In this document: positions 12,001-59,289 of the stretch, one piece after another | Layout of the letters: each line of letters begins with the position of its first letter | Numbering within the stretch: position 1 is the stretch's first letter | Origin: Crossaster papposus | Taxonomy: Eukaryota > Echinodermata > Asteroidea > Velatida > Solasteridae | DNA: 64,000 nt | Reading direction: 5' to 3' | Assembly (NCBI GenBank): GCA_037893245.1 | Contig: JBAIAA010000022.1 | Coordinates: 868,001-932,000, forward strand | Notes under the pieces: model-generated | What the model saw: only the letters and a program-made list of their open reading frames with translations | Databases searched by the model: none | What the model was told of the DNA's origin: nothing | Position numbers and translations under genes: made by a program

Positions 12001-12440
12001 GGGGGTGCGTTCCACTTACGCGAACTGTTTGCGCGAACGTTCGCCAACGTTTTGAGTTGGCGTTAGTTGAAGTGGAACGATATTTTAAAAACTACGTTTT
12101 CAAAATGGCGGCGCCCAGTGAAAGTGACATCGTTTGGTTCGCTGCTTTTTGTCCAACTCATTTTTTTTCTTTAAAAGATCCCTGTGACTGCTCAAAACAA
12201 TCCACCGTTTATAACGAAAAGTATAAAACGTAAATAAAAACCGTGAAAAGAACCCTGCCGTCTGCTAACCGCTTCGCCATCATTAAAATACGTCACTGGC
12301 CAACAGCGAACAGCTCGGAATGTCGTTCGCCGTTTTCGCTAACGTTCGCCAACATAATTGGCGCACATTGCGTTCCACTCAAGCGAACAACGCAAACGTT
12401 GGCCAACGTTGGCAACGTTCGCGTAAGCGGAACGCACCCC
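12001..12440. mobile_element. 440-bp MITE, second of a tandem pair
   Basis: Head-to-tail copy of 11,561–12,000 with scattered substitutions. It was either generated by local duplication or by insertion next to the first copy. The whole pair lies inside the Helitron. Confidence 0.75.
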
Positions 12441-12507
12441 AGGTGTATCTATAAGTTACGATTTCACCCAGCTAGCAGGTGCCGCGCGAAGCGCGGCATC
12501 CTGCTAG

Positions 12508-13553
12508 TCATAATCATATACACAGGCCAAACTTAAGGGCGCCGCCATTACTAAAACTATTCGCGCCTCGACTTTTGAGGGCGCTACACATTATTTTGGT
12601 CAAAACATTCGCTTCAGACGCATCGCGTCCAAAAGCGAAAAATCTATTATTATATTTTGTTTTCATTTTTTTTTTAAGACCCATTTTTACTGTGTTTGTT
12701 TTTGTACCAACTTGTCTCTCACCAAAATTTCGCGAGGATTTTCTCTCCACTGATGTTCACTCCGAACCGTTGAGGGTGTCTGACCCTAGTGCTCGGGATA
12801 GCCGGGCTAGGTAGCCCTTTCGCTGGACTCTGTTGTTCTCTAACACAATGACTGCTAGATGGACCTTGCTGTAGGCCCAACTCGGATTCGCAGTTTGCTT
12901 ACTATTGACGAATATGTTTCAATCAGCAGGTAGACCCAGCCTTGTATTTTACACCCCAAGCGACGAGGTGTGGTGGTCGACTTCAGATTACTCTTTAGTC
13001 GATGGGACCCTTCCACACAAATTGAAAGGGCCCAGTGATTCAGGTACACCCCCTGCTACACCTGGCTGGGGTAGTAGAGGGAGCCCCTCACTGGTGCTAG
13101 GAATAACACTCCCCTCACCCAAAAAGTATACATCCTCCAGATTATAAGCTAGAAGAGTTAAGTACTCAAATGGTGTTTAAAGCACACAGGAACATTTACA
13201 TTCATTTCAAAAATAACCTAGCGAATGATTAGACCAGATAAAAAACAAAACTAGTTTCTAGTCCAGATGATTTTTGGTTATAGGGTCGTATCATATAATA
13301 ATAATTAGACTACACTAATAAAAAAAATAAGAATTAGGATTGGCAGAAAAGTGCCGATGTGAATATGACTCAGATTTTTGTCACTTTTAATTTATTTAAA
13401 AATTTTTGTTGTAGCAAAAAATTGATCCACACGAGGATAAGAAAAAATATATTCATGATTTGGCCTTATAAAAAGCTTACATGGATTAAAGATTGTACTG
13501 GACCCCCCTTGTTTATTTCATCTGGTTTGTCGTCTAGAAGAAAACAGAAAAAC
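12508..13553. other. Shared duplication sequence without a recognised gene
   Basis: The stretch 12,651–13,553 matches 52,977–53,885 in copy 2 with few differences. ORFs such as 12,905–13,147 (+) and 12,855–13,049 (−) have no recognisable motif and are not convincingly conserved as protein. I see no gene here. Confidence 0.5.
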
Positions 13554-17230: not shown

Positions 17231-17266
17231 ACTATGGAATTCTATATATGCCACTCTAAACGTCGT

Positions 17267-17421
17267 GCGTCGCCCTTTTTGCGTCGCCCTTTTTGCGTCG
17301 CCCTTTTTGCGTCGCCCTTTATGCGTCGCCCTTTATGCGTCGCCCTTTTTGCGTCGCCCTTTTTGCGTCGCCCTTTTTGCGTCGCCCTTTTTGCGTTGCC
17401 CTTTTTTCGTCGCCCTTTTTT
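17267..17421 (+). repeat. 14-bp minisatellite GCGTCGCCCTTTTT
   Basis: About 11 head-to-tail units (GCGTCGCCCTTTTT with few changes), bracketed by the 10-base direct repeat TATGGAATTC at 17,233–17,242 and 17,422–17,431. The three open frames through it are a repeat artefact. Absent from copy 2. Confidence 0.9.
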
Positions 17422-17453
17422 TATGGAATTCCAAAGACGACAAAACTGCGTCG

Positions 17454-17495
17454 CGTCGTGCCGTCGCCCCGACGCCACGGGGCGACGGCACGACG
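17454..17495. repeat. GC-rich hairpin, 17-bp perfect arms
   Basis: Left arm CGTCGTGCCGTCGCCCC (17,454–17,470) and its exact complement (17,479–17,495) with an 8-base loop. The same 'cgtcgtgccgtcgc' word recurs downstream to about 17,585. Confidence 0.85.
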
Positions 17496-17712
17496 TCACC
17501 GTCGCGCGCCAGACCGTCGTGCCTTTAAGCCGTCGCGTCGTGCCGTCGCGTAGTGCCGTCGCCCCGTCGCGTCGTGTCGTCGCCTCAGACTAGTGTAAAT
17601 AGGGGGCGCCCTTACAGACGTAATTACAAAGATAATTAAAAAGGATACTGTCCAGATGACAAGGCAAAAGTGGATCTAGCAAACTGTAAATTCCCAACAT
17701 GTTCAATTTATG

Positions 17713-18040
17713 CTGCGTTCCAATCGCGTCGTGTTTATCGTGTTTACGAGTTCACGAGTCGTATAATGGCGTTCTAATCGCCTGGTAACTCGTGTTCACG
17801 AGTGGTGAACTCGAGGTGGAATTTTTTTCTCCATGTTCACGACTTCATAACGATTGAAATACTCGCGCATACGTGTTGGTTCACGTACGAGTTCTTGTGC
17901 GATAAAGAATATCCTTACACACGACTAACTCGACTGTGCGCGTGCGTCGATCTTGGCGGGTAGCGTTTGGAATGCAACCCACTCGTGAACATGGAGAAAT
18001 TCACGGTGAACACGATAAAAACGACGCGATTGGAACGCAG
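17713..18040. mobile_element. MITE with CTGCGTTCCAATCGCG ends
   Basis: About 30-base inverted ends (CTGCGTTCCAATCGCGTCGT / ACGACGCGATTGGAACGCAG) enclose 328 bp. Internal 'cgtgttcacgagt' palindromes are present and it is non-coding. It lies in a copy-1-only stretch. Confidence 0.75.
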
Positions 18041-18046
18041 TATAAC

Positions 18047-18309
18047 CACTGACCTCAACACCTGGACAGATCATTGTCCATATTCTGCTGTGCTAACACT
18101 TGAAGTCGGCGCGAACTGGAAGTGCAACATGGCGTCACTGCTGTGAGCCAATGAAATGTCCAGTTGTAGAGGTCAGTGGATTTACCAACCAACTGAACTC
18201 TACACCTGGACATTTCATTGGCTCACAGCAGTGACGCCATGTTGCACTTCTCTGCATGCCGACTTCAAAATGAAACAATGGATGATCTGTCCATGTATAG
18301 AGGTCAGTG
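18047..18309. mobile_element. Fold-back MITE with 8-bp target duplication
   Basis: Begins CACTGACCTC and ends GAGGTCAGTG, with long inner inverted arms ('aatgaaatgtccag', 'aacatggcgtcactgctgtgagcc'). It is flanked by AGTATAAC at 18,039–18,046 and 18,310–18,317. An 8-bp duplication suggests a hAT-type transposase. The left target overlaps the last two bases of the preceding MITE. Confidence 0.8.
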
Positions 18310-18319
18310 AGTATAACGT

Positions 18320-19430
18320 TAGGCCGGCAGCTGTTGTAAAATGCGCCCTCTATTGGACCTGATCACAAGCCAAAATAAACTTTTCAATTTGATTTGTATT
18401 TTTAAATATACCCAAACATGGGAAAAAAAATATGTTACACGGGAAGTATTTACGATTTATGCAAAATAGGCATATTGTTTTAAAAACTTCGTAGGGCTCG
18501 ACATTATTTACTATGCCTTAAGGGATCTTCATGCCAAATATGGTGCTTTTATCCACCAAGTAACGGTAATCTCTAAATATAATATTAAGCTACCTGATTA
18601 AAATATCCTGATAATCCTTACATTCAACTATGTGAACTTTTCAACCTGCCCACACATTATCATAGGAGAACTGTTAACGACTGTTTTCTGTATATAAACA
18701 CATTCACAATCACATCATTCCAACAGATGTCAAACCAATTACTATTATGCCCCTAATCGGCGTACTATGTCAGCTCCTAAACACAGTTTGCATGTTCCAT
18801 GGGGTCGGGATGAGGCGACTAAACGAGGCTTTATCTCAAGAATTAGTCGTCTGCCTACAACCGACTTCATGAAATTGAAAGATGCGATGCGTTAGGAGCC
18901 CCAACGCTAAATTGTTTTCGTAGTCAATTAAGTATACAAAGCTTTGTCGTGTGATCATCCAGTTTAGGTCTATTGTCGAATTTGAAGCTCATGATACACT
19001 CACTATAGGTTGTTAATTTTATTGTATGTACATAAGTTGTTTCTAATTGTTTTGTTTTACTGTCTTAATGTTTTGTACAATTATTTTAATCTGTAAAGCA
19101 AATATATTTTTAATACCAAATTCTACTTTGTGTTTAATTTTGATTTTAAACTGATGCCTACAAGCTGCAGCTTAATCAAAACAAACATATTTTGTTTGTT
19201 TTTTGGTTCCCGAATTAATAAATAAATAAATAAATAAATAATGAAAATACCAAATAATTCTTCTATGAAACAACCAACCATTGTTTATACACATTTATTT
19301 CCAAGCAAGCATTGTTCCTATGTAACGAAGAGATACGGATTGTAAAAAAAACACCACGGATTCAACGCAGTCCGTACAAAAAATGGGGCTCGATGTTTAG
19401 AAACGATAGAATGGTCAATACGTATAGCCT
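18320..19430. other. Copy-1-only AT-rich sequence
   Basis: No gene, TIR or tandem structure is evident apart from an (AAAT)n run at about 19,216–19,242. The sequence has no counterpart in copy 2. Confidence 0.4.
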
Positions 19431-28409: not shown

Positions 28410-30022
28410 TACGGAGCTCTGGAAGTGCCATCCGACTTGTTTACATCCTGACATATTTTATCTCAGGATGACGACATAATAGAGGCAAAATGACGACATC
28501 CTTTAATATTTGTTCGCGTAATAGCGACATCCTGAGATAATATATCGCGAGATGACGACATGCTGAAAGTAGGATGACGACATCCCGAGATAACATATCG
28601 CGGGATGACGACATGCTAAAAGTAGGATGACGACATCCCGAGATAATATATCGCGGGATGACGACATCCTGAGATAATATATCGCGGGATGACGACATGT
28701 TGAAAATAGGATGACGACATCCTGAGATAATATATCGCGGTATGACGACATGTTGAAAGTAGGATGACGACATCCTGAGATAATATATCGCGGGATGACG
28801 ACATCCTGAGAGTAGGATGACGACATCCTGAGATAATATATCGCGGGATGACGACATGCTGAGAGTAGGATGACGACATCCTGAGATAATATATCCCGGG
28901 ATGACAACATGCTGCTGAAACCATGTAGGATCCTGATTAGATCAGCAATACGAAAGCTTAAAGGGACCATCTGCGTTTCTGCGTTTCAGAATGAAAAACC
29001 ATGTAAAGACGGACACTTGGTGCAATGCTCGCAGTCAGCATACGATAGGCCGGGTAGCAGCGCGGCGAGTCTCTGCCTCGATTTTTGTCATACCCCTTGC
29101 GAGGTTTTATGTTAATGAGGCTTCCCTTTGAGGGGCGGAGTGGTTTGACAACAAATTTCAAAAATTATTTTGTCCCATTTATCACAGAAAATAAACACAA
29201 CCACACACATAATGTTGTTGTAAACATTATACTTTATTGATTTAAGCAAACAAAATCCGTATTACATGTTTCCTTTAATCAATCCGTATGGTAGGCTTTG
29301 TCTATTTTCAAGACGCTTTTGCTTTGGCCTTGACGCTTTGACTTTGGTCGTGACAGTTGTGGACCACCGTAGTATTTCGTTAAAAGACGTCTTCTTGAGA
29401 GATATGATTTAATATCCTGGAAAGACGTCTTTCCAAGATACGATTATCATGGAAAGGCGTCTTTCTGAGATACGATATTAGGAAAGATATATTTTTATAT
29501 CAGTATTCCGTCTTTTTGAGATAAATTATCTCAGAAACGCGGAAACGCGGATGGTCACTTTAAGCTTCCGTATTGCTGATCTAATCAGGATCCTACATAG
29601 TTTCAGCAGCATGTCGTCATCCCAGGATATATTATCCCAGGATGTCGTCATCCTACTTTCAACATGTCGTCATCCCGCGATATATTATCCCAGGATGTTG
29701 TCATCCTACTTTTAGCATGTCGTCATCCCGGGATATATTATCCCAGAATGTCGTCATCCTACTTTCAACATGTCGTCATCCTGCGATATATTATCTCAGG
29801 ATGTCGTCATGCTATTTTCAACATGTCGTCATCCTATTTTCAACATGTCGTCATCCCGCGATATATTATCTCAGGATGTCGTCATCCTACTTTCAGCATG
29901 TCGTCATCATGCGATATATTATCTCAGGATGTCGCCATTACGCGAACAAATATCAAAGGATATCAGGATGTCGTCCTGAGATAAAATATGTCAAGATGTA
30001 AACAAGTCGGATGGCACTTCCA
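28410..30022. mobile_element. Fold-back element with full loop (copy 2)
   Basis: Left arm 28,410–28,920 and right arm 29,590–30,022 of 53-bp monomers flank a ~670-bp loop that FB-1 of copy 1 has largely lost. The loop edges extend the inverted repeat ('aggatcctgattagatcagc' and complement, then 'cgcggatggtcac'). Loop ORFs (28,909–29,115 +; 28,958–29,161 −) lack recognisable domains. The right end lacks the last ~10 bases of the terminal repeat. Confidence 0.75.
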
Positions 30023-30442
30023 TATTTTTCCGTATTTTTCAGATGAATAACATTTTTGACTAACAAATAGTCACTTTTCTCACTTCCAGAAACTTGTTTT
30101 AACCTCAAATTGATTCTGGACTTTTCAATGTTTCCTCTTTATTAAAAAAAAAAGAAGATAATCCTATCCCCATTTTTCCTCAAAAGTACGGAGCTCTGGA
30201 AGTGCCGTCCGACTTGTTTACATCCTGACATATTTTATCTCAGGATGACGACATAATAAAGGTAAAATGACGACATCCTTTGATATTTGTTCGCGTAATG
30301 GCGACATCCTAAGATAATATATCGCGGGATGACGACATCCTGAAAGTACGATGACGACATCCTGAGATAATATATCGCGTGATGACGACATGTTGAAAGT
30401 AGGATGACGACATCCTGATATAAGATATCGCGGGATGACGAC
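28750..30442 (+). repeat. 1,693-bp tandem duplication, first unit
   Basis: Virtually identical to the next 1,693 bp (30,443–32,135), including all three ORFs of 106–119 codons in the fold-back arm. Unit borders fall inside 53-bp monomers, as expected of unequal exchange between repeats. Not present in copy 1. Confidence 0.85.
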
Positions 30443-31715
30443 ATGTTGAAAGTAGGATGACGACATCCTGAGATAATATATCGCGGGATGACGACATCCT
30501 GAGAGTAGGATGACGACATCCTGAGATAATATATCGCGGGATGACGACATGCTGAGAGTAGGATGACGACATCCTGAGATAATATATCCCGGGATGACAA
30601 CATGCTGCTGAAACCATGTAGGATCCTGATTAGATCAGCAATACGAAAGCTTAAAGGGACCATCTGCGTTTCTGCGTTTCAGAATGAAAAACCATGTAAA
30701 GACGGACACTTGGTGCAATGCTCGCAGTCAGCATACGATAGGCCGGGTAGCAGCGCGGCGAGTCTCTGCCTCGATTTTTGTCATACCCCTTGCGAGGTTT
30801 TATGTTAATGAGGCTTCCCTTTGAGGGGCGGAGTGGTTTGACAACAAATTTCAAAAATTATTTTGTCCCATTTATCACAGAAAATAAACACAACCACACA
30901 CATAATGTTGTTGTAAACATTATACTTTATTGATTTAAGCAAACAAAATCCGTATTACATGTTTCCTTTAATCAATCCGTATGGTAGGCTTTGTCTATTT
31001 TCAAGACGCTTTTGCTTTGGCCTTGACGCTTTGACTTTGGTCGTGACAGTTGTGGACCACCGTAGTATTTCGTTAAAAGACGTCTTCTTGAGAGATATGA
31101 TTTAATATCCTGGAAAGACGTCTTTCCAAGATACGATTATCATGGAAAGGCGTCTTTCTGAGATACGATATTAGGAAAGATATATTTTTATATCAGTATT
31201 CCGTCTTTTTGAGATAAATTATCTCAGAAACGCGGAAACGCGGATGGTCACTTTAAGCTTCCGTATTGCTGATCTAATCAGGATCCTACATAGTTTCAGC
31301 AGCATGTCGTCATCCCAGGATATATTATCCCAGGATGTCGTCATCCTACTTTCAACATGTCGTCATCCCGCGATATATTATCCCAGGATGTTGTCATCCT
31401 ACTTTTAGCATGTCGTCATCCCGGGATATATTATCCCAGAATGTCGTCATCCTACTTTCAACATGTCGTCATCCTGCGATATATTATCTCAGGATGTCGT
31501 CATGCTATTTTCAACATGTCGTCATCCTATTTTCAACATGTCGTCATCCCGCGATATATTATCTCAGGATGTCGTCATCCTACTTTCAGCATGTCGTCAT
31601 CATGCGATATATTATCTCAGGATGTCGCCATTACGCGAACAAATATCAAAGGATATCAGGATGTCGTCCTGAGATAAAATATGTCAAGATGTAAACAAGT
31701 CGGATGGCACTTCCA
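30187..31715. mobile_element. Fold-back element created by the 1,693-bp duplication
   Basis: Same organisation as 28,410–30,022: monomer arms around the long loop. Its left arm comes from the downstream element and the rest repeats the upstream one, consistent with recombination between arms. Confidence 0.7.
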
Positions 31716-32135
31716 TATTTTTCCGTATTTTTCAGATGAATAACATTTTTGACTAACAAATAGTCACTTTTCTCACTTCCAGAAACTTGTTTTAACCTCA
31801 AATTGATTCTGGACTTTTCAATGTTTCCTCTTTATTAAAAAAAAAAGAAGATAATCCTATCCCCATTTTTCCTCAAAAGTACGGAGCTCTGGAAGTGCCG
31901 TCCGACTTGTTTACATCCTGACATATTTTATCTTAGGATGACGACATAATAAAGGTAAAATGACGACATCCTTTGATATTTGTTCGCGTAATGGCGACAT
32001 CCTAAGATAATATATCGCGGGATGACGACATCCTGAAAGTACGATGACGACATCCTGAGATAATATATCGCGTGATGACGACATGTTGAAAGTAGGATGA
32101 CGACATCCTGATATAAGATATCGCGGGATGACGAC
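30443..32135 (+). repeat. 1,693-bp tandem duplication, second unit
   Basis: Second unit of the pair, so copy 2 has three fold-back elements where copy 1 has two. Near-identity indicates a recent event. Confidence 0.85.
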
Positions 32136-32595
32136 ATGTTGAAAGTAGGATGGCGACATCCTGAGATAGTATATCTTGGGATGACGATATGTTGAAAGTA
32201 TGATGACGACATCTTGAGATAATATATCGCTGGATGACGACATGCTGAAAGTGGGATGACGACATCCTGAGATAATATCTCAGGATGTCGTCATTACGCG
32301 AACAAATATCAAAGGATGTCGTCATTTTGCCCTTATTATGTCGTCATCCCGCGATATCTTATATCAAGATGTTGTCATCCTACTTTCAAGATGTCGTCAT
32401 CACGCGATATATTTTCTCAGGATGTCGTCATCGTACTTTCAGGATGTCGTCATCCCGCGATATATTATCTCAGGATGTCGCCATTACGCGAACAAATATC
32501 CAAGGATGTCGTCATTTTGCCTCTATTATGTCGTCATCCTGAGATAAAATATGTCAGGATGTAAACAAGTCGGATGGCACTTCCAGAGCTCCGTA
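31880..32595. mobile_element. Fold-back element FB-2, copy 2
   Basis: Complete 716-bp palindrome, TACGGAGCTCTGG to its complement, with centre near 32,275. It is 164 bp shorter than its copy-1 counterpart, i.e. about three monomers fewer in the right arm. Confidence 0.8.
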
Positions 32596-39249: not shown

Positions 39250-39401
39250 TTAGCTGTTTCGGCCTTTCAGCCGAAACAGCTTTTGTTTTCGTTAAAGTTT
39301 TTTTAGCTGTTTCGGTTTTTCACCGAAACAGCTTTTGTTTTCGTTAAAGTTTTTTTTTAGCTGTTTCGGTTTTTCACCGAAACAGCTTTTGTTTTCGTTC
39401 T

Positions 39402-39434
<33 letters not shown>

Positions 39435-39606
39435 CTGTTTCGGTTTTTCACCGAAACAGCTTTTGTTTTCGTTCTGGTTTTTTTTTTTTTTTTTTTAGCT
39501 GTTTCGGTTTTTCACCGAAACAGCTTTTGTTTTCGTTAAAGTTTTTTTTTTTCTTTTTTTAGCTGTTTCGGCATTTCAGCCGAAACAGCTTTTGTTTTCG
39601 TTAAAG
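39250..39606 (+). repeat. Tandem 5'-end modules (AGCTGTTTCGG hairpins)
   Basis: Six head-to-tail copies, each a hairpin AGCTGTTTCGG…CCGAAACAGCT followed by TTTTGTTTTCGTTAAAG and a T run. Isolated copies recur at about 45,237, 45,289 and 46,470, in front of monomer blocks. They look like amplified left ends lacking bodies. Confidence 0.8.
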
Positions 39607-41082
39607 TTTTTTTGGCTTTTTCGCAAATTTTGCGAAAAAGCCTTTGTTTTTGTTCTGATTTTTTTTTTCTTCTTCTTCTTCTTCTTCTTCTTCTTCTTCT
39701 TTTTTTCTTTTAGTAACCTAAACCCCATAGACTTTGTACACGTTTTTTCTGCCAGTCACTTTTAATAGAAAACAAAGTCGTATTTCCATAAAACTTAACC
39801 CAGGTGAAGACCCTATAGTGAACTCGTGTCTCGCCGAAAAACGTAATGGTGACGTCATCAGGGGTCACGTGACGTCATCTTAAAGGTGTAATTGATTTAA
39901 TCTTTGAAAATCAATAACAAATCAATCGCAAAAGACCGAAACTTAATTTTTGTGGCAATAGATAGAATAATCCAGGATCTTAATTTTATCTCGTGTGCGT
40001 GAAATCACATGACCCTTCCTTCCGGTCTAAACCGGAAGTGCCTTATAATTTAAAACTGAAAAATGATATGAACTTACTTTCAACGATGTTAGTGTCTGGC
40101 TAGTATAAACTTTTTAAAATAATTACCGGCGACGTCATAACACGTTATAGCGCCCTCTAGCGGCAGGTTGAAAAATTGTTAAAATGAATAATCTGTTGAT
40201 GTGTGTGGCGAAGTTTGCTGAAATCACTTTATAACCGGTGTATATAATCAGCTTCGTGCTAAGAACATATTGAGAAAGATATTTATTGATGACGTCACCA
40301 AACCGGAAGTTACAATGAAAAGACCTTAAAACCTTAAAACGTCGCTTAAAAATCAACCGCGATAGATATAATCCAGATTTTTGCTTGAAATAGCAAAGTT
40401 AAGACAGCTCTCGAGTTTCTGTTAATTACGTCACAATGACGTCATCAAGTGTCAGATTACAAGCAACCAAATATTTATAAATTTAATCTTTGAAAATCAA
40501 TATAAAATCAACAGTAAGAGATCTGATTTAGATTTTTAAGGAAATTGATAGATTAATCCATGGTCTTCATAATTTGTATTACATGCAAAAAGACCTGACA
40601 CTTCCTTCCGGTCCAAACCGGAAGTGCCTTATAATTTAAAAGTGGAAAACGATGCTAACTTACTTTCAACGATGTTAGGCGCTGGCTAGGTTGTAAGTAA
40701 CAAAAAAGTTAACAGTGACTTCATAAAATGTTAAAGCGCCCTCTAGCGTCATGTTGACAAATGTTACGTCATATTACGATTATATTTGAATTATTACGTT
40801 TTTAGACGTTGAAGGCATATCTCAGCAACGGATCGTGTTAACATAACACCTCATTTTGTGTTGTTCGGTGATAGATAGTTGCACAAAAAGTTCACAAACG
40901 TGTGACGTCATCGTTTTAATCAGTTTTAATTCATTTTACTCTGTTTAAATTAACTTAAATTAGTTTTCAATGATTTTAAATTGTTTTGATGGTTTAAAAG
41001 TTCAATTTTGAAAATATTTAATAAACAAAAATGTTAAATGCGAAAAAGCCCTATGTTCTGTTCCTTGAACAGACGTAGTTCT

Positions 41083-41084
<2 letters not shown>
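39607..41084 (+). mobile_element. Second rolling-circle-like family, plus-strand copy
   Basis: The left end is a hairpin GGCTTTTTCGCAAATTTTGCG…AAAGCC, and the right end reads GCGAAAAAGCC, hairpin TCTGTTC-CTT-GAACAGA, then CTAG (41,081–41,084). The body has AT-rich sequence with repeated 'cttccggt…accggaag' and 'gtgacgtcat' palindromes and no ORF. A (TTC)n run lies at 39,668–39,705. A minus-strand relative is at 57,976–58,945. Confidence 0.75.
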
Positions 41085-41123
<39 letters not shown>

Positions 41124-44100
41124 TCACTTCTTCCCATAGGATTTGTACACGTTTTTTCTGCCAATACACTTTGACACTTTGGTAAATCCGATCGACCTGA
41201 AACTTGGCATACATTTAGACAACCACCCAAGGACGGTCCTAGAAGAAATTCGTCGCGATTCCGTCATTCAAGGTCACGTGACGTCATGTTAAAGGTAACA
41301 TTTTCCCCATAGGTTTTGTACACGTTTTTCTTCAAACTGTTGACTTTGACACTTTAATTAATTCGATCGACTTGAGACTTAGCATACACCTAGAACACCA
41401 CTCACAGATAGTCCTGGACGAAATTCGGCACGATTGCGTCATTCATGGTCACGTGACGTGACGTTAAATGTGTAATTTATTTCCCCTTAGGGTTTGTACA
41501 CGTTTGTCTTCAGACTATTGACTTTGACACTTTCGTACATTTGATCGACTTGAGACTTAGCACACACCTCAACCACCATCCCCAGGAGGGCCAAGGAAAA
41601 AATTGTCATGATGACATCATCGTGGGTCATGTGACGTCACATTAAAGGTGTAGTTTTCGGACCCTCTATCTCTGGAAGTACAAGTCCAATTAGGGTCAAA
41701 CTTTGTATTCGGGTATTCCGGGATGTGTTATAGACGAAAATTAAGATGACATTGTGATGATATCATCGGGTGTCATGTGACGTCACATTAAAGGTTCAAT
41801 TTTCTCCATAGGTTTTGTACACGTTTTTCTTCAAACTGTTGACTTTGACACTTTAATGAATTCGATCGACTTGAGACTTTTTCCCCATAGGATTTGTACA
41901 CGTTTTTTCTGGCATGGCACTTTGACACTTTGGTAAATCCGATCGACTTGAAACTTGGCATATATTTAGACAACCACCCAAGGACGGTCCTAGAAGAAAT
42001 TCGTAGCGATTAAGTCATTCAAGGTCACGTTACTTCACGTTAAAGGTGAAATTTTCCCCATAGGTTTTGTACACGGTTTTTTTCAGACTATTGACTTTGA
42101 CACTTTGGTAAATCCGATCGACTTGAGACTTGGCATACACTTAGAACACCACCCACAAATGATATTGGAAGAAATTCGGCACGATTGCGTCTTTCAAGGT
42201 CACGTGACGTCACGTTAAATGTGCAAATTATTCCCCCATAGGTTTTGTACACGTTTTTCTTTAGACTATTAACTTTAACACTTTCGTAAATTTGATCGAC
42301 TTGAGACTTAGCACACACCTCAACAACCATCCCCAGGAGGGCCAAGGGAAAAATTGTCATGATGACATCATCGTGGGTCATGTGACGTCACATTAAAGGT
42401 GTAGTTTTCGGACCCTCTATCTCTGAAAGTACAAGTCCAATTAGGGTCAAACTTTGTATTCGGGTATTTCGGGATGTGTTATAGACGAAAATTAGGATGA
42501 CATTGTGATGATATCATCGGGTGTCATGTGACGTCACATTAAAGGTTTAATTTTCCCCATAGGATTTGTACACGTTTTTTTCAACCAATTTGTCTATGGC
42601 ACTAAATTCGATCGACATTAGACTTGGCACACACTTAGACAACCACACAAATATTGAAAGGCATTTTAGACAGTATGCGAAACAGCTCTGTGTTTGTCCA
42701 CAAACACATTTCTAGTTTTTTTTTTGTTTTGTTTTTCAGACTTTTCTTCATAGGATTTGCACACGTTTGTTCAGACAGGTCACTTTGACACTTTGGTAAA
42801 TCCGATCGACTTGAGACTTGGCATACATTTAGACAACCACCCAAGGACGGTCCTAAAAGAAATTTGTCACGATTACGTAGTTCAAGGTCACGTGACCTCA
42901 CGTTAAAGGTGAAAATTGTCCCATAGGTTTTGTACACGTTTTTCTTCAGACTATTGACTTTGGCACTTCCGTAAATCCGACCGACTTGAAACTTGGCATA
43001 CACTTAGAAGACCACCCCTAGATGTTTCTGAGAGAAATTCGGCACGATTGCGTCATTCAAGGTCACGTGACGTCACATTAAAGGTGCACATTTTTCTCCC
43101 ATTGGTTTTGTACACGTTTTGTTTAGACTGTTGACTTTGACACTTCAGTACATCCGATCGACTTGAGACTTGGCACACACTTAGACCACCATCCACAGAC
43201 GGCCCTAAAAGAAATTTGGCACGATTACGTCATTCAAGGTCACGGGGCGTCACGTTAAAGTTTCATTTTTCCCCCATAGGTTTTGTACACGTTTTTCTTT
43301 AGACTATTGACTTTGACACTAGTAAATCTGATCGACTTGAGACTTGGCACACACAAAAGACCATCACACACATATTGAAAGACACTCGAAACAGCTCTGT
43401 GTTTGTCCACAAACACATGTCTAGTTTTTTTGTTGTTTTTTTTGCCTTTTGTTCTCCATAGGATTTGTACACGTTTGTTCAGACAATACACTTTGACACT
43501 TTGGTAAATCCGATGGACTTGAGACTTGGCATACACTTAGACAACCACCCAAGGACGGTCCTAGAAGAAATTCGTCGCGATTACGTCATTCAAGGTCACG
43601 TGACTTCGCGTTAAAGGTGAAATTTTCCCCATAGGTTTTGTACACGTTTTTCTTCAGACTATTGAATTTGACACTTTGGTCAATCCGACCGACTTGAAAC
43701 TTGCCATACACTCAGAACACCACCACCAGATGTATCTGAAAGAAATTCAACACGATTGCGTCATTCAAGGTCACGTGACGTCAAGTTAAAGGTTTAATTT
43801 GTCTCCCATAGGTTTTGTACACGTTTTTCTTCAGACTCTTGACTTTGACACTTAGTAAATCCGATCGACTTGAGACTTGGCACACACATAGACCACCATC
43901 CACAGACGGTCGTAGGAGAAATTTGGCACGATTACGTCATTCAAGGTCACGTGACTTCGCGTTAAAGGTTCAATTTTCCCCATAGGTTTTGTACACGTTT
44001 TCCTTCAGACCCTTGACTTTGACACTTTGGTAAATCCGACCGACTTGAAACTTGGCATACACTTAGAACACCACCCCTAGATGTTTCTGAAAGAAATTCG

Positions 44101-47100
44101 GCACGATTGCGTCTTTGAAGTTCACGTGACGTCACATTAAAGGTGCACATTTTTCTCCCATTGGTTTTGTACACTTTTTGTTTAGACTGTTGACTTTGAC
44201 ACTTTAGTAAATTCGATCGACTTGAGACTTGGCACACACTTAGACCACCATCCACAGACGGCCCTAAAAGAAATTTGGCACGATTACGTCATTCAAGGTC
44301 ACGGGGCGTCACGTTAAAGTTTCATTTTTCCCCATAGATTTTGTACACGTTTTTCTTTAGACTATTGCCGTTGACACTTTAGTAAATCTGATCGACTTGA
44401 GACTTGGCACACACAAAAGACCACCACACACATATTAATAGTAATTTTAGACACTCGAAACAGCTCTGTGTTTGTCCACAAACACATGTCTAGTTTTTTT
44501 TCTTTTTTCTTTGCCTTTTGTTCTTCATAGGATTTGTACACGTTTGTTCAGACAATACACTTTGACACTTTGGGAAATCCGATCGACTTGAGACATGGCA
44601 TACACTTAGACAACCACCCAAGGACGGTCCTAGAAGAAATTCGTCGCGATTACGTCATTCAAGGTCACGTGACTTCGCGTTAAAGGTGAAATTTTCCCCA
44701 TAGGTTTTGTACACGTTTTTCTTCAGACTATTGAATTTGAAACTTCGGTAAATCCGACCAACTTGAAACTTGGCATGCCCTTAGAACACCACCCCCAGAT
44801 GTTCCTGAAAGAAATTTGGCACGATTGCGTCATTGAACGTCACGTGACGTCACGTTAAAAGTGCACATTTTTATCCCATTGGTTTTGTACACGTTTTTCT
44901 TTAGACTATTGACTTTGACACTTTAGTACATCCGATCGACTTAAGACTTAGCACACACTTAGACCACCATCCACAGACGGTCCTAGAAACAAATCGGCAC
45001 GATTACGTCATTCAAGGTCACGGAGCGTCACGTTAAAGGTTCAATTTTCCCCCATAGGTTTTGTACACGTTTTTCTTTAGACTGTTGACTTTGACACTTT
45101 CGTAAATTTGATCGACTTGAGACTTGGCACACACATAGACCACCACACACACATATTGAAAGTAATGTAAGACACTCGAAACAGCTCTGTGTTTGTCCAC
45201 AAACACATGTCTAGTTTTTTTTTTTGTTTTTTTTTTAGCTGTTTCGGCATTTCAGCCGAAACAGCTTCTGTTTTCGTTAAAGTTTTTTTAGCTGTTTCGG
45301 TTTTTCACCGAAACAGCTTTTGTAATCGTTAAAGTTTTTTTTTTTCTTTTTTTTTTTTTTCTTTTTCAGAATTTTCTCCATAGGATTTGTACACGTTTGT
45401 TCAGACAGGTCACTTAGGTACTTTGGTAAATCCGATCGACTTGAGACTTGGCATACATTTAGACAACCACACAAGGACGGTCCTAGAAGAAATTCGCCGC
45501 GATTACGTCACTCAAGGTCACGTGACTTCGCGTTAAAGGTGAAATTTTTCCCATAGGTTTTGTACACGTTTTTCTTCAGACTATTGACTTTGACACTTTC
45601 GTAAATCTGATCGACTTGAGACTTGGCACACACAAAAGAACACCACACACATATTGAAAGTGATTTTAGACACTCGAAACAGCTCTGTGTTTGTCCACAA
45701 ACACATGTCTAGTTTTCTTTTTTCTTTTTTTCCTTTTTTTTTTTTTTTCCACTTTCAGTGTTTTTACCCATAGGATTTACACACGTTTGTTCTGCCAATA
45801 CACTTTGGCACTTTGGTAAATCCAATCGACTTGAGACTTGGTATACACTTAGACCTCCACCCACAGATGGTCCTAGAAGAAATTTGGCTCGATTGCGTCA
45901 TTCAAGGTCACGTGACGTCACGTTAAAGGTTTAATTTTCCCCATAGGTTTTGTACACGTTTTTCTTCAGACTATTGACTTTGGCACTTCGGTAAATCCGA
46001 CCGACTCGAAACTTGGTATACACTTAGAACACCACCCCCAGATGTTTCTGAAAGACATTCGGCACGATTGCGTCATTCAAGGTCACGTGACGTCACATTA
46101 AAGGTTCACATTTTTCTCCCATTGGTTTTGTACACGTTTTTATTCAGACTATTGACTTTGGCACTTCGGTCAATCCGACCGACTTGAGACTTGGCATACA
46201 CTTAGAACACCACCCACAAATGATATTGGAAGAAATTCGGCACGATTGCGTCATTCAAGGTCACGTGACGTCACCTTAAAGATTCAATTTTCCCCCCATA
46301 GGTTTTGTACACGTTTTTATTCAGACTATTGACTTTGACACTTTCGTAAATTTGATCGACTTGAGACTTGGCACACACATAGACCACCACACACACATAT
46401 TGAAAATAATGTAAGACACTCGAAACAGCTCTGTGTTTGTCCACAAACACATGTCTAGTTTTTTCTTTTTTTAGCTGTTTCGGCATTTCAGCCGAAACAG
46501 CTTTTGTTTTCGTTAAAGTTTTTTTTTTTCTTTTTCGTTTTTTTTTTCTTTTTTTTTTTTTTTTTATTTGTCATTTTTCCCCATAGGATTTGTACACGTT
46601 TTTTCTGCCAATACACTTTGACACTTTTGTAAATCCAATCGACTTGAAACTTGGCATACACTTAGACAACCACCCAAGGACGGTCCTAGAAGAAATTCGT
46701 CGCGATTCCGTAATTCAAGGTCACGTGACGTCATGTTAAAGGTACAATTTTCCCCATAGGTTTTGTACACGTTTTTCTTCAAACTATTGACTTTGACACT
46801 TTAATGAATCCGTTCGACTTAAGACTTAGCATACACCTAGAACACCACCCACAGATGGTCCTGGACGAAATTCAGCACGATTTGCGTTATTCAAGGTCAC
46901 ATGACGTGACGTTAAAGGTGTACATTTTTTTCCCATAGGGTTTGTACACGTTTGTCTTCAGACTATTGACTTTGACACTTTCGTACATTTGATCGACTCG
47001 AGACTTAGCACACATCTCGACCACCATCCCCAGGAGGGCCAAGGGGAAAATCGTCATAATGACATCATCGTGGGTCATGTGACGTCATATTAAAGGTGTA

Positions 47101-50100
47101 GTTTTAAGGACCCTCTATCTTTGGAAATACAGGCCCGATTGGGGTCAAGCTTGGTATGCAAGTATTCCAGGATGTGTTACAGACGAAAATTAAGATGACA
47201 TCATGATGACATCATCGGGTGTCATGTGACTTCACATTAAAGGTGCAATTTTCCCCATAGTATTTGTACACGTTTTTTCCAACTAATATATCTTTGGCAA
47301 TTGTGTAAATCCATCGACGTCAGACTTGGCACACACATAGACCATCATCAGATACACATATAGAAAGTAATGTTAGACACCCGAAACAGCTCTGTGTTTG
47401 TCCACAAACACATGTCTAGTTTTTTTTTCTTTTTCTTTTCCTCTTTCAGACTTTTCCCCATAGGATTTGTACACGTTTTTTCTGGAATAGCACTTTGACA
47501 CTTTGGTAAATCCGATCGACTTGAGACTTGGCATACATTTAGACAACCACCCAAGGACGGTCCTAGAAGAAATTCGACGCGATTACGTAATTCAAGGTCA
47601 CGTGACGTCATGTTAAACGTACAATTTTCCCCATAGGTTTTGTACACGTTTTTCTTCAGACTATTGACTTTGACACTTTGGTAAATCCGACCGACTTGAA
47701 ACTTGACATACACTTAGAACCCCACTCCCAGATGTCCCTGAAAGAAATTCGGCACGATTGCGTCTTTCAAGGTCACGTGACGTGACGTTAAAGGTGCACA
47801 TTTTTTCCCCATAAGGTTTGTACACGTTTTTCTTCAGACTATTGATTTTGACACTTTCGTAAATTTGATTGACTTGAGACTTAGCACACACCTCGACCAC
47901 CATCTCCAGGAGGGCCAAGGGGAAAATCGTCATGATGATGTCATCGTGGGTCATGTGACGTCACATTAAAGGTTCAGTTTTTAAGACCCTCTATCTTTAG
48001 AAGTACATGTCCGATTGGGGTCAAACTTGGTATGCAAGTATTCCAGGATGTGTTACAGACGAAATTTAAGATGACATCATGATGACATCATCGGGTGTCA
48101 TGTGACGTCACATTAAAGGTTTAATATTCCCCATAAGATTTGTACACGTTTTTTTAACTAATATATCTTTGGCAATTGTGTAAATCCATCGACTTCAGAC
48201 TTGGCACACACATAGACCATCATCAGATACACATATAGAAAGTAATGTTAGACACCCGAAACAGCTATGTGTTTGTCCACAAACACATGTCTAGTTTTTC
48301 TTTGTTTTTTGTTCTCCATAGGATTTGTACACGTTTGTTCAGACAATACACTTTGACACTTTGGGAAATCCGATCGACTTGAAACTTGGCGTACACTTAG
48401 ACAACCACCCAAGGACGGTCCTAGAAGAAATTCGTCGCGATTACGTCATTCAAGGTCACGTGACTTCGCGTTAAAGGTTAAATTTTCCCCATAGGTTTTG
48501 TACACGTTTTCCTTCAGAACCTTGACTTTGACACTTTGGTAAATCCGACCGACTTGAAACTTGGCATACACTTAGAACACCACCCCTAGATGTTTCTGAA
48601 AGAAATTCGGCACGATTGCGTCATTCAAGGTCACGTGACGTCACATTAAAGGTGCACATTTTTCTCCTATTGGTTTTGTACACGTTTTTGTTTAGACTGT
48701 TGACTTTGACACTTTAGTAATTCCGATTGACTTGAGACTTGGTACACACTTAGAACACCATCCACAGACGGCCCTAAAAGAAATTTGGCACGATTACGTC
48801 ATTCAAGGTCACGGGGCGTCACGTTAAAGTTTCATTTTTCCCCATAGATTTTGTACCCGTTTTTCTTTAGACTATTGCCGTTGACACTTTAGTAAATTTG
48901 ATCGACTTGAGACTTGGCACACACAAAAGACCACCACACACATATTAAAAGTAATTTTAGACACTCGAAACAGCTCTGTGTTTGTCCACAAACACATGTC
49001 TAGTTTTTTTTTTTTTTTTTTTCCACTTTCAGTGTTTTTACCCATAGGATTTACACACGTTTGTTCTGCCAATACACTTTGGCACTTTGGTGATTCCAAT
49101 CGACTTGAGACTTGGTGTACACTTAGACCTCCACCCACAGATGGTCCTAGAAGAAATTTGGCTCGATTGCGTCATTCAAGGTCACGTGACGTCACGTTAA
49201 AGGTGAAATTTTTCCCATAGGTTTTGTACACGTTTTTCTTCAGACTATTGACTTTGGCACTTCGGTAAATCCGACCTACTTGAAACTTGGCATACACTTA
49301 GAACACCATCCCCAGATGTTTCTGAAAGAAATTCGGCACGATTCCGTCATTCAAGGTCACGTGACGTCACATTAAAGGTTCACATTTTTCTCCCATTGGT
49401 TTTGTACACGTTTTTCTTTAGACTATTGACTTTGACACTTTAGTAAATCCGATCGACTTGAGACTTGGCACACACTTAGACCACCATCCACAGACGGCCC
49501 TGGTAGAAATTCGGCACGATTACGTCATTCAAGGTCACGGGGCGTCACGTTAAAGTTTCTATTTTTTTTCCCATAGGTTTTGTACACGTTTTTCTTTAGA
49601 CTATTGCCTTTGACACTTTGATAAATCCGACCGACTTGAAACTTTGCATACACTTAGAACACCACCCACATATGGCCCTTGAAGAAATTCGGCACGATTG
49701 CGTCATTCAAGGTCACGTGACGTCACATTAAAGGTTCACATTTTTCTCCCATTGGTTTTGTACACGTTTTTCTTTAGACTATTGACTTTGACACTTTAGT
49801 AAATCCGATCGACTTGAGACTTGGCACACACTTAGACCACCATCCACAGACGGCCCTAGTAGAAATTCGGCACGATTACGTCATTCAAGGTCACGGGGCG
49901 TCACGTTAAAGTTTCTATTTTTTTTTCCATAGGTTTTGTACACGTTTTTCTTTAGACTATTGCCTTTGACACTTTGATAAATCCGACCGACTTGAAACTT
50001 GGCATACACTTAGAACACCACCCACATATGGCCCTTGAAGAAATTCGGCACGATTGCGTCATTCAAGGTCACGTGACGTGACGTTAAATGTTCAATTTTT

Positions 50101-52974
50101 TCCCAATAGGGTTTGTACACGTTTTTCTTCAGACTATTGACTTTGACACTTTCGTAAATCTGATCGACTTGAGACTTGGCACACACAAAAGAACACCACA
50201 CACATATTGAAAGTGATTTTAGACACTCGAAACAGCTCTGTGTTTGTCCACAAACACATGTCTAGTTTTCTTTTTTCTTTTTTTCCTTTTTTTTTTTTTT
50301 TCCACTTTCAGTGTTTTTACCCATAGGATTTACACACGTTTGTTCTGCCAATACACTTTGGCACTTTGGTAAATCCAATCGACTTGAGACTTGGTATACA
50401 CTTAGACCTCCACCCACAGATGGTCCTAGAAGAAATTTGGCTCGATTGCGTCATTCAAGGTCACGTGACGTCACGTTAAAGGTTTAATTTTCCCCATAGG
50501 TTTTGTACACGTTTTTCTTCAGACTATTGACTTTGGCACTTCGGTAAATCCGACCGACTCGAAACTTGGTATACACTTAGAACACCACCCCCAGATGTTT
50601 CTGAAAGACATTCGGCACGATTGCGTCATTCAAGGTCACGTGACGTCACATTAAAGGTTCACATTTTTCTCCCATTGGTTTTGTACACGTTTTTATTCAG
50701 ACTATTGACTTTGGCACTTCGGTCAATCCGACCGACTTGAGACTTGGCATACACTTAGAACACCACCCACAAATGATATTGGAAGAAATTCGGCACGATT
50801 GCGTCTTTCAAGGTCACGTGACGTCACGTTAAATGTGAAAATTATTCCCCCATAGGTTTTGTACACGTTTTTCTTCAGAATATTAACTTTGAAATTTTCG
50901 TAAATTGTATCGACTTCAGACTTAGCACACACCTCAACCACCATCCCCAGGAGGGCCAAGGGAAAAATCGTCACGATGACGTCATCGTGGGTCATGTGAC
51001 GTCACATTAAAGGTGCAGTTGTTAGGCCCCTCTATCTCTGGAAGTACAGGCCCGATTGGGGTCAAACTTGGTATGCAAGTATTCCAGGATGTGTTATAGA
51101 CGAAAATCAGGGTGACGTCATGATGACATCATTGTGGGTCATGTGACGTCACATTAAAGGTGTAGTTTTTAAGACCCTCTATCTCTGGAAGTACAAGTCC
51201 AATTAGGGTCAAACTTGGTATTCGGGTATTCCGGGATGTGTTATAGACGAAAATTAAGATGACATTGTGATGATATCATCGGGTGTCATGTGACGTCACA
51301 TTAAAGGTTCACATTTTTCTCCCATAGGTTTTGTACACGTTTTTCTTTAGACTCTTGACTTTGACACTTAGTAAATCCGATCGACTTGAGACTTGGCACA
51401 CACATAGACCACCATCCACAGACGGTCGTAGGAGAAATTTGGCACGATTACGTCATTCAAGGTCACGGGGTGTCACGTTAAAGGTTAAATTTTCCCACAT
51501 AGGTTTTGTACACGTTTTTCTTTAGACTATTGACTTTGACACTTTAGTAAATCTGATCGACTTGAGACTTTAGTAAATCTGATCGACACACAAAAGACCA
51601 TCACACACATATTGAAAGACACTCGAAACAGCTCTGTGTTTGTCCACAAACACATGTCTAGTTTTTTTTTTTTTTTTGGTCACATTTTCCCATAGGATTT
51701 GTACACGTTTTTTCTGCCAATACACTTTGACACTTTGGTAAATCCGATCGACTTGAGACTTGGCATACATTTAGACAACCACCCAAGGACGGTCCTAGAA
51801 CAAATTCGTCGCGATTACATAATTCTTGGTCACGTGACGTCACGTTAAAGGTGTAATTTTCCCCCATAGGTTTTGTACACGTTTTTCTTCAGACTATTTA
51901 ATTTGACAGTTTGGTGAATCTGATTGACTTGAAACTTAGCACACACCTCGACCACCATCCCCAGGAGGTCCAGGAGAAAAATCGTCATGATGACGTCATC
52001 GTGGGTCATGTGACGTTACACAAAAGGTGCAGTTTTTAAGACCCTCTATCTCTGGAAGTACACGTCCGATTGGGGTCAAATTTGGTTTGCAAGTATTCGA
52101 GGATGTGTTATAGACGAAAATTACGATGACGTAATTATGACATCATCGGGTGTCATGTGACGTCACATTAAAGGTTCAATTTTCTCCATAGGTTTTGTAC
52201 ACGTTTTTCTTCAAAATATTGAATTTGACACTTCTGTCAATTCGATCGACTTGAGACTTAGCACAGACCTCGACCACCATCCTTAGGAGGGTCAAGAACA
52301 AAATAATCAAGATGACGTCATCGGGGGTCATGTGACGTCACATTAAAGGTGTAGTTTTTAAGACCGTCTAACTCTGAAAGTACAAGTCCGGTTGGGGTCA
52401 AACTTGGTTTGCAAGTATTCGAGGATGTGTTATAGACAAAAAATAGGATGACGTAATTATGACATCATCGGGTGTCATGTGACGTCACATTAAAGGTTCA
52501 ATTTTCTCCATAGGTTTTGTACACGTTTTTCTTCAGACTATTGAATTTGACAATTTGGTAAATCCGATCGACTTCGGACTTGGCACACACCTCGACCAAC
52601 ATACCCAGGAGGGCCAAGGGGGAAATCGTCAGGATGACGTCATCGTGGGTCATATGACGTCACATTAAAGGGGCAGATTTTAGGACCCTCTATCTCTGGA
52701 AGTACATGTCTGATTGGGGCCAAACTTGGTATGCAAGTATTCCAGAATGTGTAATAGACGAAAATTAAGATGACATCATGATGACATCATCGGGTGTCAT
52801 GTGACGTCACTTTAAAGGTGCAGTTTTTCCCATAGGATTTGTACACGTATTTTTCAACTTATATATCTTGGGAAAATTGACAAATCCAATCGATTTCAGA
52901 CTTGGCACACACATAATGAAAGTTATCTTAGACATCCGAAACAGCTCTGTGTTTGTCCACAAACACATGTCTAG
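41085..52974 (+). repeat. ~175–180-bp satellite monomers in higher-order blocks
   Basis: Several dozen monomers, each running CCCATAGGTTTTGTACACG … TGACTTTGACACTTTGGTAA … CGACTTGAGACTTGGCA … and ending near TCAAGGTCACGTGACGTCA-CGTTAAAGG. The first monomer after each end usually reads CATAGGATTTGTACACG and the last carries CACACACATATTGAAAG. Blocks are 498–1,396 bp long with varying numbers of middle monomers. The segments 45,600–46,330 and 50,155–50,815 are almost identical, showing recent turnover. Confidence 0.8.
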
Positions 52975-57975: not shown

Positions 57976-58945
57976 CTAGAACTACGTCTGTTCGAGGAAC
58001 AGAACATAGGGCCTTTTCGCATTTTTTCCCCCGTAAAAACCATTCAAAAGGAATTTTAAACACATTAAAAGTAATCAAAACGAATTTAGGTTATTTAAAC
58101 AGATTAAAGGTAATTTAAAGTGATTAAAACGATAACGTCACACATTTGTAAACTTTTGGTGAACTACCTAACCAACCCAATACACAATTATTTTTATTTT
58201 AGCATGATCCGTTGCTGAGATATGGCTTCAAGGTCTTACAACGTAATAAATCACATTATTGAATGATGGCTTCAAGTCTTTTCATTCTAACTTCCGGTCT
58301 GGTGACGTCATATTCTTTTTTCTCCCGGTCAAATTGTTTCTAACATGAAGCTATTATATACATCAATTATAAAGTGATTTCAGCAAACTTTGCCACACAC
58401 ATCAACTGAATATTAATTTTGAACCTGCCGCCAGAGGGTGCTATAACATGTTATGACGTCGCCGGTATTTTTTTTGAAAAGTACATCTAGCCAAATACTA
58501 ACATCGTTTAAAGTAAGTTCATATCATTTTTCACTTTCAAATTATAAGGCACTTTCGGTTTGGACCGAAAGGAAGGGTCACGTGATTTCTCACACACGAG
58601 ATAAAATGAAGATCCTGGATTATCCTATCAATTGCCACAAACCTAAAGTCCCGGTCTTTTGCGCGCGATTTGTTATTGATTTTCAAAGATTAAATAAATT
58701 TAATATGACGTCACGTTACCCCCTGATGACGTCACCATGATGTCTGTCTGCTAGACACGAGCTCACTATAGATTCTTCACTTGGGTAAAGTTTTGTTTGG
58801 ATACGACTTGTTATGAAAAGTGCTTGTACGAAAGAACGTGTACAAAGTCTATTGCATTTTGGTCCCAAAAAGAAAAAGAAAAAATAAGTAAAACAAAAAT
58901 CAGAACAAAAACAAAGGCTTTTTCGCAAAATTGTGAAAAAGCCAA
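57976..58945 (-). mobile_element. Second rolling-circle-like family, minus-strand copy
   Basis: On the minus strand it ends GCGAAAAGGCC, hairpin TCTGTTCC-TCGAACAGA, CTAG (57,976–57,979), followed by T of the (AAT)n tract. It begins near 58,945 with the GGCTTTTTCACAATTTTGCG…AAAGCC hairpin. The body matches 39,607–41,084. The 95-codon plus ORF (58,453–58,740) is not convincing. Confidence 0.72.
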
Positions 58946-59289
58946 TTAAACAAGATAATACAATTTTAAGATCGTAATTTGGACATGCATCACTGTGTAC
59001 ATGCTGTGAAAATACATTTGTTTCTAATGGGAAGGCTAGGGTGTGACGTGTATGGTGCATACATGATCGACCCACATGAATTTTGATTTTTATTCGTGGG
59101 CGAGACATGTTTTAATTTCAAATAGAAAGATAGGGGGTGACAGGTTCACTACATGACCCATATTAAAATGTGTCGAGCGGCTATTAAAAAAAAAAGAAAA
59201 AAAAAGGCCTCCTCCTTTCTTCTAAAAAAAAGACAAACATGTTGTTTTTATTATTTGGCCTAAAGGGAGGTTCTCGAGGCTCTTACGTA

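Follow-up and report, generated by a model that had tools for sequence, protein, structure and literature searches.

The closest described systems to the array analysed here are HINEs, non-autonomous Helentrons whose plan is known from mites and flies (PMC4067079). DINE-1/HINE elements and Helentrons (Thomas et al. 2014, PMC4067079; Yang and Barbash 2008, PMC2374699) resemble the elements reported below in their ends, TT target, T-rich surroundings and central repeats, and poly-T targeting guided by the endonuclease was proposed in 2014 (PMC4067079); stacked arrays are not described in the accessible text of these papers. In the Pacific oyster, Cg_HINE (Vojvoda Zeljko et al. 2020, PMC7492417) is alike in its 5′ subterminal inverted repeat (subTIR) and inverted repeat, its short simple-sequence tract, its central ~140–180-bp satellite-like repeats, its 3′ subTIR and palindrome, and its T-rich TT target without target duplication. 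Cg_HINE, however, occurs as single dispersed elements, and the words nested and concatemer are absent from the main text of that paper. Here we analyse an array at positions 39250–52974 of a 64,000-nucleotide stretch of Crossaster papposus DNA (C22:868001-932000, the window), searching the 1.02-Gb assembly with it. A T-tract replaces the oyster microsatellite in these elements and would host the nesting: we conclude that the array is very probably a recursive nest of HINEs, each inserted in the T-tract just inside an earlier 5′ end. In a further locus, L040, there are 12 elements, nine of them open at once.

Self-insertion has a precedent on a smaller scale. It was proposed as the source of the multiple 5′ termini of FoHeli elements in Fusarium oxysporum, and one tandem triple in Metarhizium acridum possibly arose by insertion into a 5′ end (PMC5148889). 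Unlike the elements described here, the FoHeli composites are read as several 5′ ends with one 3′ end, and a T-tract landing pad, satellite bodies and a bracket test are not described in the accessible text. Helentron-borne satellites, nested transposons in general and small-scale Helitron self-insertion, as in the Fusarium FoHelis, are already known.

The initial annotation of the window had proposed that ~175–180-bp monomers, divided by twelve hairpin-plus-CTAG ends, were carried by a Helentron/DINE-1-like non-autonomous element, perhaps as concatemers, and that the array occupies a site which another copy of the region keeps empty, without target duplication. The monomers are real, and all of this apart from the concatemers agrees with what we found. 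Uninterrupted elements begin with AGCTGTTTCGG and an inverted repeat hairpin, continue through a link ending GTTAAAG or GTTCTGG into a T-tract, and then run through a characteristic lead-in monomer, more ~175-bp monomers, a reverse subTIR and a palindrome to CTAG; the simple-sequence tract and central tandem repeats of the HINE plan are thus represented by the T-tract and the monomers. We distinguish subfamilies A, B, B2, B′, Cc, D and E by the first monomer (labels coined in this analysis). SubTIRs of about 11 bp are present: AGCTGTTTCGG stands at 9 of 9 5′ ends of the array, and CCGAAACAGCT is exact at 3 of 12 3′ ends and, judged by eye, one base off at the other 9. The 5′ inverted repeat pairs with the subTIR as a hairpin in all nine cases.

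Each main-family 3′ end consists of the palindrome TGTTTGTCCACAAACA followed by CTAG, with the palindrome exact in 12 of 12 (3′ ends at 42715, 43424, 44493, 45214, 45712, 46458, 47419, 48294, 49003, 50265, 51661 and 52974), and no further palindrome of this type was found on either window strand with one error allowed. The informative feature is the palindrome plus CTAG; CTAGT alone occurs 78 times in the window against 73.8 expected, which is no enrichment. Nine main-family 5′ ends (AGCTGTTTCGG...CCGAAACAGCT), overlooked by the initial annotation, lie at 39252, 39305, 39359, 39433, 39497, 39561, 45237, 45290 and 46473, six of them within the first 350 bp. The array also holds an element of a second family, with its 5′ end (GGCTTTTTCGC...GCGAAAAAGCC) at 39614 and its 3′ end (a TGTTC..GAACA palindrome plus CTAG, the thirteenth 3′ end overall) at 41084. 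Its first 719 bp match a solitary copy (58951-58276, minus strand) at 80%; that copy is a second-family HINE in non-array DNA, at about 57976-58946 on the minus strand, with ends like those of 39614-41084.

The mode of insertion likewise follows the HINE plan. The array is an insert of about 13,725 bp between T and T: copy 2 of the surrounding region reads CTATTA[TTAGCTG...GTCTAG]TTATATTTTG where copy 1, at 12649/12650, reads CTATTA|TTATATTTTG and lacks the insert. Direct comparison of the two copies reveals no target duplication at the outer junctions, save for the ambiguity of the Ts. The inner ends sit in T-tracts, where the exact T of insertion cannot be told. The best explanation of these features is that the array members are HINEs of one main family together with one second-family element.

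Two other classes were considered and rejected. Classical satellite DNA does not fit a monomer run that, in the window, is broken by a 3′ end and a T-tract every 0.5–1.6 kb. Canonical Helitrons start with 5′ TC, end with 3′ CTRR and insert between A and T; the 5′ TTAGCTG and the T-T target conflict with this, and only the CTAG end agrees. A scan of a viral collection for the 3′ end gave no match.

Arrays with main-family ends recur across the genome. The 5′ hairpin has 11,727 exact matches, some of them counted twice because the hairpin is nearly palindromic, and two 5′ units of the GTTAAAG type separated by a gap of 0–30 bases have 3,230 exact matches, against 0 for the reversed control. Helitron-type Rep domains are also present: among the best 150 of 273 candidates scored for Helitron_like_N (Rep), every match listed, such as those at C17:878247 and C890:1154973, was above the cut-off. 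Rep frames are open over up to 3,470 amino acids, many over more than 3,000, so that long Helitron-type frames appear to be abundant. Among the matches listed, a Rep match lies at most 36 kb from the array at 7 of 40 places, against 0.4–0.8 expected; since this radius was set post hoc, some places are duplicates and both arrays and Rep genes may cluster in repeat-rich DNA, we do not build on this proximity. The element that moved the array members would be an autonomous Helentron with the same ends.

The ends within the window are arranged as follows.

12649..12650, no strand: paralogous empty site in copy 1, identified by direct comparison
39250..52974, plus: whole nested insert between T and T
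39252..39590, plus: six stacked main-family 5′ ends, each followed by GTTAAAG or GTTCTGG and a T-tract
39252-39281, 39305-39333, 39359-39387, 39433-39461, 39497-39525 and 39561-39590, plus: hairpins of the 5′ stack
39614..41084, plus: second-family element that forms the innermost bracket of the first nest, lodged in the T-tract of the sixth 5′ end
41085..42715, plus: right half of the T-tract, body and 3′ end, pairing with the sixth 5′ end (type A)
42716..43424, plus: block pairing with the fifth 5′ end (type B)
43425..44493, plus: block pairing with the fourth 5′ end (type B′, GTTCTGG)
44494..45214, plus: block pairing with the third 5′ end (type B′, GTTCTGG)
45237..46458, plus: secondary nest, with the 5′ end 45237 around the intact 45288-45712, then body and 3′ end 46458
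45288..45712, plus: intact uninterrupted element of about 425 bp, type B
45560..46265, plus: tract of about 700 bp spanning the 3′ end 45712 and the next body
46471..47419, plus: intact uninterrupted element of about 950 bp, type A
47420..51661, plus: four blocks, with 3′ ends 48294, 49003, 50265 and 51661
50113..50820, plus: other copy of the tract of about 700 bp, spanning the 3′ end 50265
51662..52974, plus: last block, type A, with the outermost 3′ end; its expected partner is the first 5′ end

From outside in, the 5′ stack reads G-loop, T, T-CTGG, T-CTGG, T, G-loop and then family 2, and the first five blocks to close, taken from inside out, are family 2, A, B, B′ and B′, a mirror image of the stack. 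The concatemers suggested by the initial annotation are contradicted by the order of ends in the 28 loci analysed below, where ends run 5′-5′ and 3′-3′ rather than 5′-3′-5′-3′ and the sequence of 5′ ends is the mirror image of that of the bodies they pair with.

The nesting would proceed as follows. Every element of the main family has a T-tract immediately inside the 5′ hairpin, and the machinery that moves it would insert further copies between two Ts of a long T-run. An incoming copy would thus split the T-tract of an earlier element and bring its own fresh one, so that the landing pad is renewed with each insertion. After repeated rounds, the 5′ ends would be stacked on the left, and the satellite bodies with their palindrome-CTAG ends would be lined up in reversed order on the right. 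The common orientation of the members is presumably set by the T strand; with all members in one direction, the right side resembles a satellite array. Exchange of monomers and loss of near-identical 5′ units may later blur the bracket order.

The order of ends was analysed in a test set of 28 loci (the window and 27 others). They were obtained with a query of 124 bases over a 3′ end and a B′ body, for which the best 40 of 1,425 candidates were scored; 30 of the 40 places were read as loci, all over 3.1 kb and twenty of them over 10 kb. Loci L031 and L024 were left out as the same arrays as L041 and L032, and L001-L021 as covered by the window and L031-L050. All loci but the window end at 3, 10 or 16 kb of read sequence. 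Loci L034, L044 and L049 have in common a block of about 3 kb that is 96–97% identical, after which L034 and L049 carry differing B′ variants.

Counting both families, steps between neighbouring ends in these loci were 5′-5′ in 94 cases, 3′-3′ in 129, 5′-3′ in 54 and 3′-5′ in 53. Main-family 5′ ends that follow one another are spaced 50–94 bp, with one spacing of 130, which corresponds to a 5′ unit plus its T-tract. Of 150 inner 5′ ends of both families, 141 lie directly behind another end (93 behind a 5′ end and 48 behind a 3′ end). Inspection of the nine exceptions by eye placed three after a 3′ end that has decayed, one after a missed 5′ end and two behind a T5 run within a monomer. Five Ts immediately precede the inner 5′ end in 135 of 144 cases examined. 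In each of the 28 loci the 3′ ends are confined to one strand, according to a check made with an earlier version of the end-finder than the end and pair counts.

If the arrays are nests, bodies should pair with 5′ ends by a last-in-first-out rule, in which the body after a 3′ end is assigned to the newest 5′ end still open. The 5′ ends of uninterrupted elements provided an independent key: those of the GTTCTG type occur with 9 of 10 B′ bodies and with none of 39 other bodies. By this key, 49 of 63 interrupted elements were concordant (three unclassified bodies of 66 are left out of this binary test), compared with 33.2 (s.d. 3.7) in within-locus shuffles, not one of which attained 49 in 20,000 runs. 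A second key predicted each 5′ end from uninterrupted bodies in other loci, using the three that most resembled the body in question; the assigned end departed from this prediction at 2.47 positions on average, compared with 3.49 (s.d. 0.26) after shuffling (66 pairs, 20 loci). In runs of two or more, last-in-first-out was concordant in 42 of 53 cases and first-in-first-out in 24 of 53. Mirror pairing thus stands above chance.

Locus L040 allowed a prediction to be tested, since under nesting its open brackets must close. Its first 10 kb hold 9 left and 6 right ends, and the next 6 kb hold 3 left and 6 right ends, in the order one 3′, two 5′, three 3′, one 5′, two 3′. The total is 12 of each; the count is never in deficit, reaches a maximum of nine elements open at once, and the last 3′ end falls one base before the read stretch stops. 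In the 3.7 kb left of the first end there is no end and there are at most three loose matches to the monomer motif. For 9 of 9 interrupted bodies, the outermost pair included, the assigned 5′ end is that of the nearest uninterrupted body elsewhere or lies within two bases of it; in an exact permutation test, 624 of 362,880 arrangements did as well.

The T-tracts themselves bear on the same question. The T-tract of intact elements (50 examined) contains a median of 25% of the TT dinucleotides on 6% of the length, and T-tract plus lead-in measure 31–79 bp in intact copies. If an inserted copy splits this tract, the left and right remnants should add up to it. The median sums, against the medians of intact copies, were 51 versus 45 bp for B, 57 versus 52.5 for B2, 58 versus 61 for A, 49 versus 48 for D, 60 versus 61 for Cc, 56 versus 66 for B′ and 47 versus 56 for E. 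The differences of 1 to 10 bp across the seven subfamilies come with no shuffled control, and A, D, Cc and E are represented by 2–3 interrupted cases each.

Several observations weigh against nesting, or at least against an unmodified nest. In the window, the bracket order decays past 45214, where nests 45237-46458 and 46471-47419 stand side by side; the secondary nest 45237..46458 has a mismatch between 5′-end type and body type, and the Cc block at 45769 carries a 5′ end with a G-loop, whereas T-loops mark three uninterrupted Cc elements. The 3′ ends exceed the 5′ ends by 12 to 9, with three late blocks lacking a 5′ end; for the four blocks of 47420..51661 only the second 5′ end remains if the first belongs to the last block. 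Pairing in the window alone is weak (432 of 5,040 permutations). An earlier version of that test gave 3,816 of 362,880, or 84 of 5,040 with two contiguous pairs fixed, using 9 of the 12 blocks, the three without a 5′ end being dropped and the outermost two paired by hand. Across the 28 loci, all but the window cut, there are 148 main-family 5′ ends to 196 3′ ends, and L042 has six 3′ ends and no 5′ end. Last-in-first-out leaves 14 of 63 pairs in disagreement; pairing in L032 is poor, and L048 offers no information, its apparent balance of 7 to 7 being followed by a further body without a 5′ end. As the 27 loci were picked by one 3′-end/B′ junction query, they are arrays by choice and B′-rich, not a random sample. 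The outer elements show no measurable excess of age over the inner ones (24 versus 16 with 32 ties in one comparison, 25 versus 27 in another). A directly empty T-tract was not found, the left outer junction being present at 4 places (C22:148503, C22:907237, C59:926719 and C877:237845) and the right at 3, and no allele lacking just one inner element was seen in the two duplicate pairs compared, which were both alike. By its coordinates, the sister copy C22:148503-156678 has the same outer junctions 8.2 kb apart, compared with 13.7 kb in the window; its own last block is unlike that of the window, its match to the latter being internal (153007-154510), so that common descent of the outer element is not shown, and this sister demonstrates a size difference, not nesting. 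At C877:237845 the left stack seems, from coordinates only, to be about 110 bp shorter.

Part of the surplus of 3′ ends may have a visible source. The tracts 45560..46265 and 50113..50820 are near-identical, and their flanks are only about 80% alike; this duplicate is the result of conversion or exchange inside the array, in a direction that cannot be told, and, lying around 45712 and 50265, it can explain one 3′ end that lacks a 5′ partner. The remaining surplus may reflect contraction of the near-identical 5′ stack. The order of events outlined above would be that of the nested brackets.

The main rival to nesting is composite mobility, in which nested units with several ends move as one by end bypass, so that many nests copy a few composites. 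Such movement, proposed for the multi-5′-end FoHeli elements (PMC5148889), would explain the extra 3′ ends. In addition, with another junction as query, 38 of the 39 other scored places match from its first bases across a 3′ end through the next A body, stopping at most 28 bases past its 3′ end, and the 124-base junction is matched at 99–100% in 26 of 40 places, the window included. The queries took the 40 best matches, however, and shared junctions were thereby selected for; the identity at 26 of 40 places is at least partly a selection effect of choosing best ungapped matches. A further comparison covered 102 junctions that the first query had not selected. Among pairs with the same inserted end (at least 95% over 255 bp), the next bodies were less than 90% alike in 44, 90–95% alike in 67 and at least 95% alike in 37, and none of these 37 doubly alike pairs shares the T-tract string, suggesting that the nests arose independently. 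The exact lead-in of the window after the 3′ end, moreover, recurs at only 4 places, over spans of 34, 48, 48 and 32 bp. We consider composite movement unlikely as the source of the arrays, and a companion of nesting more than its replacement.

Considerably less probable is that two separate processes without nesting built the arrays, slippage multiplying the 5′ units and unequal crossing-over the 3′ blocks. The 5′ units are short, near-identical direct repeats, adjacent ones are slightly more alike than distant ones (3.8 versus 4.4 differences), and the 700-bp tract was exchanged within the window array. Yet these processes predict neither mirror pairing nor an alternation such as g C a C a C a C C in L040, nor the closure of 12 by 12, nor the T-tract sum rule. 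Both probably act as secondary modifiers of the nests. It is more improbable still that the array is an artefact of assembling a repetitive region. Repeats abound in the genome, and 40 scored places (of 524 candidates) carry the block in which the window lies, but the structure recurs on many contigs with differing contents, the same 9.9-kb array stands on two contigs at 99.9%, and the outer junctions are exact between T and T.

Rolling-circle concatemers, formed when a circular intermediate is copied for several rounds and integrates as a multimer, are scarcely credible here: although the 3′ ends of each locus share one orientation, rolling-circle multimers are an accepted route in reviews (PMC12628747) and the process is in print for truncated plant Helitrons, it predicts one 5′ end or none per unit of a regular-ended, head-to-tail single unit, and is rejected by the run structure of the ends, with 5′ runs at the short spacing given above, 3′ runs, neighbouring 5′ ends that often differ in type and mirror the bodies, and window blocks that belong to several subfamilies.

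The region around the array is itself repeated. A 152-base piece of its block matches at 97–100% identity at the best 40 of 524 candidate places, on C22, C31, C59, C306, C769, C877 and others, two of them 26.6 kb apart within the window. Copy 1 alone carries a 2.3-kb insert (10196-12507) about 140 bp upstream of the empty site, where copy 2 is uninterrupted; it resembles a canonical Helitron, with TCTATCTATCTATACTATAAAAG at its start and, at its end, CTAG after a hairpin rich in GC, and a direct repeat of 446 bp lies within it (11561-12446). Dense 53-bp repeats (ATGTCGTCATCC...) occur in both orientations at 1248-2719 and 28525-32595. In copy 1, eleven copies of a 14-bp unit, TGCGTCGCCCTTTT, lie at 17266-17420, and nothing in the counterpart region of copy 2 matches 17095-19407. 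The reading frames of the window include a C1q/collagen frame and a reverse transcriptase, both in keeping with an animal source.

Other routes from mobile elements to tandem arrays have been described. Truncated Helitrons of plant centromeres (Xiong et al. 2016, via PMC12628747 and PMC8268682) also form Helitron-derived tandem arrays, but do so by loss of the 3′ terminator and rolling-circle copying, whereas the 3′ ends are kept here. Double insertion of a transposon as a satellite seed (McGurk and Barbash 2018, via PMC12628747) is alike in that a site preference yields neighbours; it relies on target duplication, whereas here there is none and the target lies inside the element. A 2025 review (PMC12628747) lists rolling-circle multimers, unequal exchange and shared target duplications as routes to satellites and mentions shuffled oyster loci with Helitron pieces inside other elements; among the seven tandem-repeat schemes of its Fig. 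2a-g, none has an internal target renewed with each copy. Our searches of the open literature, with most subscription papers outside their reach, turned up no account of satellite bodies mirroring deep stacks of 5′ ends. In six oysters, one-sided arrays make up 24–28% of the Cg170/HindIII arrays and are ascribed, in the accessible text, to recombination or faulty rolling-circle copying (PMC11136912).

The beginnings of satellite arrays are still an open question. Repeats carried by Helentrons provide a link from transposons to satellites that is well documented. With the element's own target inside its left end, each insertion would destroy one pad and supply another, and nesting would leave a decodable record because the stacked left ends mirror the right-hand blocks. 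Tentatively, and aware that the idea may well fail, we suggest that with such a self-renewing pad nesting alone grows unidirectional arrays whose left-end order is the insertion order, and that this is a general, overlooked origin of animal Helentron satellites, including many oyster arrays with a one-sided Helitron end. Under nesting, a one-sided oyster array should often be a body that a nested insertion has parted from its left end. If true, insertion into an internal T-tract would be a further, testable route from transposons to satellite arrays.

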